DNA of 64,000 nt. Source: Rhizobium acidisoli. GTDB taxonomy: Bacteria; Pseudomonadota; Alphaproteobacteria; Rhizobiales; Rhizobiaceae. This document shows, piece by piece, positions 55,089 through 57,216 of this stretch (position 1 is its first letter; each line of letters starts with the position of its first letter). The notes under the pieces are model-generated. The model was given only the letters and a program-made list of their open reading frames with translations, did not search any database and was not told the origin of the DNA. The DNA is taken from positions 558,001 to 622,000 of the forward strand of contig NZ_CP034998.1 in NCBI RefSeq assembly GCF_002531755.2, read 5' to 3'. The position numbers were made by a program, and so were the translations under genes.

Positions 55089-55491
55089 ACGGGCAAAGGT
55101 TGGGCGGATACCGTTGAAAAACTTCGGCGCCCGACATTAGCTTATTTTGAGCTATGGCCTGCACCTCGCCAAATGGTGCGCGTCATTCGACCTACTGATC
55201 GCATGTGGAGTTTTCGGTGAGAGACGAGCGAGAGAAAGGGCGGTGGGACACCGATGACGTGGTAACGTTCATGTACGGAAAATACAACGGCGCACTCCTA
55301 CTGGCGTTACGGGATTTCTGGAAAGCACTTCGTTCAGCTTGGCCCGACAAGCGAAATCCTCCCCGGTCTCCCGATCGTCGAGAAGAACCCTAGGACTAAG
55401 AACCCGTTTGATGCTCAGCGGACCGGGGGCAAAGTGCACCGGCTCAAACGGCGCGCTTGTTCGAAATCACCCTTGATGCTAGAAAAGTGGT
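55089..55491. other. Gap without a convincing gene
   Basis: About 400 AT-richer bases. A 62-codon frame from a GTG at 55205 to 55393 has no ribosome site and no recognisable product; it may be a gene remnant. The right end holds the promoter region of the Met leader: TTGTTC at 55457-55462 and TAGAAA at 55480-55485, 17 bases apart, are weak candidate -35 and -10 elements. Confidence 0.4.
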
Positions 55492-55542
55492 ATGGACAAC
55501 AACGTGATCAGCACTTTCGTGATGATGATGCCGCGCTCATAG
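55492..55542 (+). CDS. Met-rich leader peptide
   Basis: Sixteen codons encode MDNNVISTFVMMMPRS, then TAG. Three consecutive Met codons (55522-55530) lie just before a hairpin and upstream of a terminator in front of a methionyl-tRNA synthetase gene. The ribosome site is weak (AAAAGTGG). A leaderless start would be consistent with the trp leader of rhizobia, where the transcript is reported to begin at the leader AUG. Inference: a ribosome starved of Met-tRNA stalls on the Met codons and favours the antiterminator. Confidence 0.75.
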   Translation: MDNNVISTFVMMMPRS

Positions 55543-55599
55543 CGTGGCGGGTTTCGTGCGTCCATAATGCACCAGCAACCGCCCTCGAGGCGGTTTTTT
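55530..55599 (+). promoter_or_regulatory. Attenuator: pause hairpin and antiterminator
   Basis: The 1:2 hairpin pairs GCCGCGCT (55530-55537) with AGCGTGGC (55541-55548), 8 bp including one G-U. It begins on the last Met codon. In the 2:3 alternative, GGC and GGTT (55546-55553, one bulged G) pair with AACCGCC (55577-55583), and GTGC (55556-55559) pairs with GCAC (55569-55572). The 2:3 pairing uses strand 2 of the first hairpin and the left arm of the terminator, so the structures exclude each other as in known amino-acid attenuators. Confidence 0.75.
55577..55599 (+). terminator. Attenuator terminator before metG
   Basis: AACCGCC (55577-55583) and GGCGGTT (55589-55595) form a 7-bp GC-rich stem with a 5-base loop, directly followed by TTTT (55596-55599). 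It lies 52 bases before the synthetase start codon and after the leader stop. Confidence 0.85.
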
Positions 55600-55650
55600 C
55601 ATGGGTCGATCCGTCTCGCCGGCAATAACAGCCTTCGAAAGGAAACACCG

Positions 55651-57216
55651 ATGAACAAGACGGACATCTATATCACCACCTCCATCCCTTATGTGAATGC
55701 CGCGCCGCATGTGGGCTTTGCCCTCGAACTCGTGCAGGCCGATGCCTATGCCCGTCATCTCAGTCTTCTCGGCCATGACGTCAGGTTCCAGTGCGGAACC
55801 GATGACAACAGCTTGAAGAATGTCAGGGCGGCGGAAGCCAGGGGACTGCAGGTGAGGGACTTCGTCAATGCCAACGCCGACAGGTTCGAGCGTCTGGGCG
55901 GCCGGCTCGATATCTCCAACCAGGAATTCGTCCGCACCTCCCGCGATGCCAGGCACGTCGCCTGTGTCCACGCCTTATGGCGGGCCTGCGCTGAAAACGG
56001 CGACCTCTATCGCAAGGCCTATGAGGGCCTCTACCGCGTCGGCTGCGAGCAATTTTACGAGCCATCGGAACTCGACGACGGGCGCTGCCCGGAACATGGG
56101 ATCGCTCTTGAGGCCGTCCGTGAGGAGAACTGGTTCTTCCGTCTCTCCCGATACGGCGGCAAGCTCCTCGAACTCATCGAGACCGGTGCGCTTCGCATCG
56201 TTCCAGCCCATCGGCGCAACGAAATCCTTGCCCTGCTGCGGCGTGGCCTGACCGACATCAGCGTGTCGCGCAGCGCCGAACGGGCGAGAGGCTGGGGCGT
56301 TCCGGTTCCCGATGGGGGTGGTCCCGATGCGGGTGACGTTGTCTATGTCTGGTTCGACGCCCTGGCGAACTATCTCACAGGCCTGGGGCACGGATCCGAT
56401 CAGGCGCTCCTGCAGCGCTATTGGAACGGCGGAGAACGCATCTACGTCGTCGGCAAGGGCATCTCCAAGTTCCACGCCATTTACTGGCCGGCCATCCTGC
56501 TGTCCGCCGGCCTGCCGCCGCCATCGTCGCTCCTCGTGCACGGCTACGTCACGGTGGACGGCAGGAAGATCGGCAAGTCGGCCGGCAACGGCATCGACCC
56601 GGAAGGCATCATCGACGCCTACGGAACGCCGGACGCGCTGAGATATTACCTGCTCCGGCATATACGCTCGGGAGACGATGGCGACTTCGCGGGCGAGCGT
56701 CTCGAAGCCGCATGGTCGGGAGAGCTCGCAGGCCAGCTCGGCAATCTCGCCAACCGAGTGCTTGCTCTTCTGTCCACATCTTTCAACGGCATCGTACCGA
56801 ACGTGCCGGATAGCGAGTTCGTTCAGCAAGCTCAACGCCTTCCGGGCAAGGTGGCGGCGGCCTTCGATGCCTACGAACTCCATGTCGGCCTCGCCGACAT
56901 TTTCGAGTTTGTTGGTGAGGCGAACCGGCGGTTTACGAAAGGTGCACCATGGGCGGATGCGAAAGCGCTGCTTGGCGATCCCGCTCCGGAGGATCGCAAA
57001 GTGACCGCCGAACGTCTTGGCGCTTGCCTGGCCGAGCAGATCTACGGCCTTGCGACCGTTGCCCGCTGCCTCCTCCCGTTCCTGCCCGGCTCGGCCGCAA
57101 CGCTGCATTCCAGGCTGGGAATACCGTCTCCCCGGCTCTATCGGGATCCCCTGATCGTGACTGGGGCCAAGGCTGCCCCGCAAGCCGTGCTCTTCCCACA
57201 AAGAGCGGCAGCTTGA
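55651..57216 (+). CDS. metG: Methionine--tRNA ligase, diverged second copy
   Basis: This is a 521-residue class I synthetase. Its HIGH-type motif is H20-V-G-F23 instead of HIGH, and the KMSKS loop is K306-I-G-K-S310. It keeps GTDDN where housekeeping enzymes have GTDEHG, the Cys-containing insert CEQFYEPSELDDGRCPEHG, ENWFFRLSRY, and the anticodon-binding C-terminus. The N-terminus (TTSIPYVNAAPHVGF) is MetRS-like throughout. Housekeeping rhizobial MetRS is expected elsewhere, so this is probably a second copy, for example a resistant form against a methionine-analogue inhibitor. The ATG follows AAAGGAAA. A Met-rich leader and terminator precede it. Confidence 0.85.
   Translation: MNKTDIYITTSIPYVNAAPHVGFALELVQADAYARHLSLLGHDVRFQCGTDDNSLKNVRAAEARGLQVRDFVNANADRFERLGGRLDISNQEFVRTSRDARHVACVHALWRACAENGDLYRKAYEGLYRVGCEQFYEPSELDDGRCPEHGIALEAVREENWFFRLSRYGGKLLELIETGALRIVPAHRRNEILALLRRGLTDISVSRSAERARGWGVPVPDGGGPDAGDVVYVWFDALANYLTGLGHGSDQALLQRYWNGGERIYVVGKGISKFHAIYWPAILLSAGLPPPSSLLVHGYVTVDGRKIGKSAGNGIDPEGIIDAYGTPDALRYYLLRHIRSGDDGDFAGERLEAAWSGELAGQLGNLANRVLALLSTSFNGIVPNVPDSEFVQQAQRLPGKVAAAFDAYELHVGLADIFEFVGEANRRFTKGAPWADAKALLGDPAPEDRKVTAERLGACLAEQIYGLATVARCLLPFLPGSAATLHSRLGIPSPRLYRDPLIVTGAKAAPQAVLFPQRAAA

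Follow-up and report, generated by a model that had tools for sequence, protein, structure and literature searches.

A conserved Met-codon leader and predicted attenuator in front of an accessory methionyl-tRNA synthetase gene in Rhizobium and distant bacteria

The window analyzed here (the whole stretch of 64,000 nucleotides, G000:C1:558001-622000) lies within a 7.5-Mb Rhizobium-type genome and carries a methionyl-tRNA synthetase (MetRS) gene preceded by a short open reading frame with three consecutive Met codons. The question raised by this locus is whether ribosome-mediated transcription attenuation, sensing scarce Met-tRNA, controls the accessory MetRS. As judged from the sequence and its relatives, this control appears highly likely, and the Met-codon attenuator in front of the gene is real and conserved and very probably functional.

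The leader locus and its predicted switch

The features of the locus are as follows.
55456..55461, + strand: −35-like CTTGTT; CTTG occurs at the corresponding distance in 39 of the 40 rhizobial leaders
55477..55481, + strand: extended −10-like TGcTA, its TA 11-12 bases 5' of the leader AUG; TGNTA occurs at the corresponding position in all 40 rhizobial leaders
55491-55497/55560-55566, + strand: candidate long-range helix between leader start and antiterminator loop; suggestive, with complementarity retained through changed sequences in several lineages
55492..55542, + strand: leader ORF of 16 codons, MDNNVISTFVMMMPRS, ending VMMMPRS; ATG at 55492, stop codon TAG at 55540-55542; predicted leaderless
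55522..55530, + strand: three Met codons (55522-55524, 55525-55527, 55528-55530), putative sensor codons; tandem Met kept in most orthologues
55530..55548, + strand: hairpin 1:2, GCCGCGCU (55530-55537) with AGCGUGGC (55541-55548), 8 pairs including one G-U; predicted to form when its 5' arm is free of a stalled ribosome
55546..55583, + strand: antiterminator 2:3, two helices, GGCGG 55546-55550/CCGCC 55579-55583 and GUGC 55556-55559/GCAC 55569-55572
55577..55599, + strand: intrinsic terminator 3:4, AACCGCC 55577-55583 with GGCGGUU 55589-55595, followed by a T tract
55582-55593/55611-55622, + strand: candidate post-terminator helix 4:5; suggestive, 8 inner pairs folding as a block in the window together with two outer ones, with the T tract in the loop
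55639..55643, + strand: ribosome-binding site AAGGA of the synthetase, preceding ATG 55651
55651..57216, + strand: accessory MetRS, 521 aa, start ATG 55651

The elements described in an earlier note on this DNA were recovered where it had placed them, namely a 16-codon leader with three consecutive Met codons (55492-55542), an 8-bp hairpin beginning on the last Met codon (55530-55548), an alternative pairing of 55546-55559 with 55569-55583, which resolves into two helices, a terminator with T tract (55577-55599), and a start at 55651 of a gene that encodes a MetRS. A terminator consensus scan of 55300-55700 returned 3:4 as its single site (shuffle expectation 0.3), and a U-tract intrinsic terminator is accordingly present between the leader and the synthetase gene. 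The synthetase frame is open upstream from 55567, but this in-frame extension is unlikely to be coding because the spacing between leader stop and synthetase start differs between orthologues by non-multiples of three (−100 to −108).

A generic sigma-70 scan of 55300-55700 found no promoter site. Transcription is predicted to start at the leader AUG or 1-2 bases upstream, and since the AUG sits at this predicted start, the leader ORF is predicted to be leaderless; a Shine-Dalgarno-like word lies 5' of the leader AUG in 7 of 40 rhizobial leaders. The Sinorhizobium meliloti trp leader is likewise leaderless (PMC10117765, PMC7298713).

The order of the elements, which the earlier note had described as that required for attenuation, is supported by masked-ribosome folding and by a three-stem comparison across loci (see below). 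The fold of 55480-55660 that it had proposed as a check reached −61.3 kcal/mol (z = −2.11; 4 of 200 shuffles equally low), and the masked folds switch between antiterminator and terminator. A ribosome whose A site holds either the first or the third Met codon was represented by masking the RNA to 55536 or 55542, and a ribosome at the stop codon by masking to 55554. With the ribosome stalled at either Met codon, the RNA to 55586 folds as the antiterminator (−16.1 kcal/mol), and with the ribosome at the stop codon only the GUGC:GCAC hairpin is left and the terminator forms (−17.0, RNA to 55600). Without a ribosome, the fold contains both hairpin 1:2 and the terminator (−39.3). In these models, pairings 1:2, 2:3 and 3:4 are placed so as to be mutually exclusive, a stalled ribosome blocking region 1 and a terminating ribosome blocking region 2. 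The best fold of the complete transcript with a stalled ribosome contains the terminator (−18.4 or −17.4, versus −16.1 for the antiterminator in the shorter RNA), and the switch must therefore be kinetic and decided by the order of transcription, as is usual for attenuators.

In the proposed mechanism, RNA polymerase would initiate on the leader AUG or beside it, and the leaderless ORF would be entered by a ribosome. With ample Met-tRNA, the ribosome would reach the stop codon and cover region 2, and terminator 3:4 would halt transcription near 55600. If the supply of charged elongator Met-tRNA falls short, through methionine shortage or inhibition of the housekeeping MetRS, the ribosome would stall on a Met codon and cover region 1, allowing region 2 to pair with region 3 and transcription to proceed into the accessory MetRS gene, which would restore charging. 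The target gene serves the charging of the same amino acid that the leader codons specify. On the other side, methionine shortage starves initiation too, which could blunt a Met sensor.

Conservation of the leader and its layout

Tandem-Met leaders were counted as short ORFs that contain two adjacent internal ATG codons and end at least 30 nt before the synthetase, with dinucleotide shuffles as a control; loci were classed by the identity of their best tblastn piece, and the accessory MetRS group was defined by a piece at least 43% identical. Such a leader precedes 55 of the 63 distinct loci of this group (shuffles about 1.0), comprising 40 of 43 in the class of at least 65% identity (shuffles 0.80), 12 of 17 at 46-65% (0.21), and all three at 43-46% (0.03). 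Below 43%, housekeeping MetRS included, there were none among 76 loci (0.35). The three misses in the highest class are L011 (MVM), L104 (MTM), and L194, which was put there by a short piece although the gene itself is more distant (about 50% identical); L195 and L196 (about 53%) were similarly classed at 62-63% by their best piece. The Met run is reduced to two Met in L097 and reads MMV in L026, and no Met leader is present at L032, L033, L035, L046, L163, or L194. The leader of L193 was read by eye and stands outside these counts. Orthologues keep both the Met run and the alternative stems, the two features on whose loss the earlier note's reading would have foundered.

A leader RNA model (R1), for which many of the matched sequences also served as the training set, matches 37 of 148 genomes of the genus, 34 of them strongly (E < 1e-18). 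Thirty-two of the strong matches stand immediately before the synthetase and come from the 36 genomes of the genus in which it is present (E ≤ 1e-140), and the other two belong to genomes with synthetase remnants (G310 and G312). The remaining four holders consist of G298, G331, and G392, which have diverged MM leaders, and G355, which has no leader. Weak matches in G369 and G302 were unlike Met leaders and were dropped. The leader counts against shuffles, the comparison of orthologues, and the R1 matches rule out chance or a coding artefact.

Outside the genus, the leader is distributed unevenly. Among 26 Pseudonocardiaceae loci, 7 have tandem Met (four sharing one peptide), 5 have a single-Met leader-like ORF (by eye), and 14 have neither. 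The single-Met ORFs (L210, L216, L217, L219, L229) stand, again by eye, before a terminator-like hairpin and are perhaps weaker sensors or leaders being lost. Seven loci of this family without a Met leader (L221, L223, L224, L227, L228, L230, L232) have in common the word GATAAGCTTGG about 30-40 bases 5' of the start, which suggests some other control. In a Gemmatimonadota search, the leader was found in three of six new loci, the other three being at most 42% identical, and additionally at L037. On plasmids, it precedes four of the five loci examined, and the fifth is a distant Bacillota gene outside the clade. In a MetRS tree of 101 rows, for which close (≥80%) and distant (<42%) rows had been thinned, 8 changes account for the leader label, versus 33 in shuffles. 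The leader-bearing rows are all on the accessory side, which also has rows without a leader. L030 and the upstream-only L191-L194 were excluded from the tree by hand, and rows with a short reading from the projected start were removed by script; L037 was among the latter, and the Gemmatimonadota leader is therefore absent from the tree.

The close rhizobial RNAs are nearly invariant from the Met codons through the terminator, and covariation of 1:2 and 2:3 is therefore uninformative there. The earlier note had looked to an alignment of upstream regions for conserved Met runs and covariation; the former were found, and the latter is nearly absent in this set. Alignment A2 omitted identical rows and L102 (a leader with one extra base in the 1:2 loop), and alignment A3 comprised 33 of 36 listed references after L031, L088, and L092, whose listed ends fall short of the start codon, were dropped. 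Support for the predicted design rests instead on unrelated leaders that keep equal logic. The layout persists, in other sequences, among diverged relatives from rhizobia, actinobacteria, Gemmatimonadota, and Armatimonadota, the sequence-unrelated Met leaders including MTCLPLNTLSRMMMPLSIREADPFA (L085), MIEKFKSLMKFRMMRRFAMKR (L195), MSNAIHILKSMMRPC (L196), MQRRREPMMRPFPGFLGVR (L164), MCMMSSFPFGNPAAEHPLT (L037), and ..VGMMMSRVWS.. (L042). In L195, CCGCUUC occurs in both regions 1 and 3 and region 2 is GAAGCGG, and in L193, the CGGGGG of region 2 pairs first with CCCCUG and then with CCCCCG.

Sets of three overlapping stems were sought downstream of the last Met codon and scored against shuffles in 23 chosen representative loci; the rhizobial rows are non-independent tests, and the stacking energies, like those of the start-loop, cross-lineage 4:5, and Tyr-leader searches, come from an approximate nearest-neighbour table. 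The arrangement reached p ≤ 0.05 in 19 of the 23, with misses at L014 (0.056), L034 (0.16), L165 (0.09), and L037 (0.91). Canonical stems were found in 15 of 23, including the sequence-unrelated L085, L195, L193, L038, L049, L162, and L042, and the best triple is non-canonical in five (L026, L164, L165, L166, L167).

Two additional helices are suggestive. Pairing of the leader start with the antiterminator loop is often restored at another register (CAGAAGC:GCUUCUG in L047, ACUGGA:UCCAGU in L026, ACAAGC:GCUUGU in L021) and is absent in L022 and L024. Its mean energy over 33 distinct pairs is −9.79 versus −8.12 (sd 0.29) with permuted loops, and over 12 divergent loci −8.53 versus −6.15, neither value being reached in 2000 permutations, although relatedness inflates both comparisons. 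This helix may keep the RNA off when the leader is untranslated. For the second helix (4:5), the conserved segment 55611-55622 lies 3' of the terminator and is complementary to the terminator loop and 3' arm. Pairs form in 92.4% of alignment cells versus 33-58% in slid controls, with no covariation excess over shuffles. A contiguous-duplex test across 13 lineages gives a Fisher p of 0.017, carried by the rhizobial L085, L195, and L193 and by L167, and p = 0.36 for the window itself. A hairpin over the ribosome-binding site is paired in 95% of cells, without covariation.

The accessory synthetase and parallel Tyr-codon leaders

The window genome holds a second MetRS, 38% identical to the 521-aa copy, and the gene behind the leader is thus a second copy beside a housekeeping synthetase, as in accessory synthetases of the trpRS1 type. 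Its most similar counterparts among named relatives are in R. redzepovicii, R. hidalgonense, and R. laguerreae. Relatives were found in 36 of 148 genomes of the genus and in 4 of 297 evenly drawn genomes of the family (both at E ≤ 1e-140), and in 1 of 385 genomes of the class, the window's own (E ≤ 1e-115, with the best three candidates per genome scored). Two MetRS genes were present in all hosts checked in this respect (four rhizobial-type and one Gemmatimonadota), and seven actinobacterial hosts of a relative carry a separate gene with a much stronger MetRS Pfam match, taken as the housekeeping MetRS. Matches on plasmids comprise 32 records, 10 of them at 60-80% identity.

In G310 and G312 (L235 and L236), the leader is intact, but all that is left of the synthetase is a C-terminal remnant, followed, as in the window, by an acyltransferase-like ORF. 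Locus L237 (G367:C30) holds a decayed second leader copy with no recognisable synthetase after it. The flanking ORFs of seven loci were listed, without a family search, for biosynthetic-cluster context, and no recurrent partner stood out.

When 13 accessory MetRS rows were aligned with 5 others, the accessory enzymes were seen to have a Cys-rich knuckle, KIGKS, KISKS, KVAKS, or KLAKS in place of KMSKS, and F, W, Y, or T in place of V in YVWxDAL. The window MetRS has Arg129 (56035-56037) at the first knuckle Cys position, which is Cys in the 12 other accessory rows. These changes fit altered inhibitor sensitivity, and the accessory MetRS is probably a backup, perhaps one that would tolerate an inhibitor of the housekeeping enzyme.

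A parallel arrangement was found for tyrosine, as a weak R1 match in G333 is a Tyr-codon leader, MNNTAIIAAIYYATLP, preceding a TyrRS gene. Searching 40 genomes of the genus with this TyrRS gave 46 matches, two of them in each of six genomes, and all six additional copies have Tyr-Tyr leaders (L241, L242, L245, L246, L247, L278). The TyrRS locus that served as query, L239 (L239:1048-1278), makes the seventh with a Tyr-Tyr leader, its genome lying outside the second-copy search. None was present in the 25 other TyrRS loci examined, with 15 of the 46 matches outside the leader examination. A stem search made without shuffles found the 1:2, 2:3, 3:4 arrangement in six of the seven Tyr leaders.

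Alternative readings, known systems and significance

Among other explanations, an arrest like that of erm leaders, in which the nascent ..VMMMPRS stalls the ribosome on a small molecule or drug and thereby induces a resistance-type synthetase, is quite improbable. MMM(P/L)RS is retained in most close rhizobial leaders and the target resembles an accessory, patchily held gene, as such an arrest would have it; however, the residues flanking the Met run vary by lineage (MMRPF, MMMPLS, MMAPP, MMSR, MMSSF), the P-R-S codons double as the 1:2 stem, and we know of no arrest motif of this kind. We give somewhat less credence still to a ligand- or tRNA-binding RNA of the T-box or SAM riboswitch type with an incidental short ORF. 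Downstream of the stop codon, the non-coding core hardly varies among the 40 rhizobial leaders, and SAM-II riboswitches serve S. meliloti metA and metZ (PMC9373788). Nevertheless, no Rfam family reached its gathering threshold in the window, unrelated leaders share the Met run in an ORF and the order of stems rather than a sequence core, and the TyrRS leaders exchange Met for Tyr codons. The least probable reading, action in trans by the leader RNA or peptide once released, as for S. meliloti rnTrpL/peTrpL, with attenuation secondary, draws on the trans products of the likewise leaderless rhizobial trp attenuator (PMC7298713, PMC10117765), and is itself compatible with attenuation.

Attenuation by a ribosome sensing Met-tRNA remains the preferred reading, and several known systems resemble it. 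Vecchione and Sello reportedly described in 2010 that trpRS1 of Streptomyces coelicolor, encoding an auxiliary antibiotic-resistant TrpRS, is under ribosome-mediated transcriptional attenuation. Like the Met locus, it is an accessory synthetase under this type of control; it differs in its Trp codons and its Streptomyces host, and in that resistance of the enzyme is said to be established there and is here a hypothesis that fits the sequence differences at conserved motifs. The pheST operon of gamma-proteobacteria is likewise a synthetase operon under an attenuator, although it encodes a housekeeping synthetase, its leader has Phe codons, and this leader has a ribosome-binding site, unlike the leaderless Met leader. 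Streptococcus pneumoniae reportedly has a second MetRS linked to inhibitor sensitivity (Gentry, in 2003), which is comparable as an additional MetRS beside another but is of a different MetRS type; it is not known to have a leader attenuator.

Resistance of the S. coelicolor trpRS1 type is named in PMC9437257. In PMC1262725, attenuators are predicted at Streptomyces trpS and leuS, and pheST of gamma-proteobacteria is also named; the leuS and trpS2 cases resemble the Met locus in having classical predicted attenuators directly before a synthetase gene, for other amino acids. Ahead of methionine operons, the same paper saw no RNA structure that was conserved in the Actinobacteria it covered. The S. 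meliloti trpLE(G) attenuator, as outlined in PMC7298713 and PMC10117765, is a rhizobial attenuator with a leaderless ORF (14 codons) like the Met locus, but precedes a biosynthetic gene and has Trp codons. PMC7916415 discusses inhibitors of MetRS and the danger that a resistant type of the enzyme spreads by transfer.

The earlier note had stated that no Met-codon leader attenuator was known for a MetRS, and titles and abstract starts in the literature searched, which left most subscription journals outside, described none before a MetRS or an auxiliary MetRS. As a kind, synthetase attenuators are not novel outside Firmicutes (pheST; Streptomyces trpS, leuS, and trpRS1). The Met version of synthetase attenuation thus appears to be new, and ribosome-mediated attenuation of synthetase genes was already known.

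A broader reading can be offered tentatively, in which attenuation by cognate-codon leaders would serve generally to control spare aminoacyl-tRNA synthetases and would have been assembled repeatedly, with Met codons before the accessory MetRS clade of Alphaproteobacteria, Actinomycetota, Gemmatimonadota, and Armatimonadota and Tyr codons before accessory TyrRS in Rhizobium. Because the leaderless start would pair with the antiterminator loop, the Met leader RNA could in this scheme sense both initiation, through the supply of fMet, and elongation at Met codons, and helix 4:5 would lock the transcript after read-through. With the TyrRS leaders as a parallel, runs of cognate codons become usable as a search signal for further spare synthetases.

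The Met leader would extend ribosome-mediated attenuation to methionine, the sole amino acid whose shortage also halts initiation, and would for that reason offer a direct test of how a Met sensor works at all. Induction of a patchily held spare MetRS, borne in part on plasmids, when charging fails would follow the logic of an inducible resistance gene, and the leaders of the spare synthetases hint at natural inhibitors of MetRS and TyrRS in soil.
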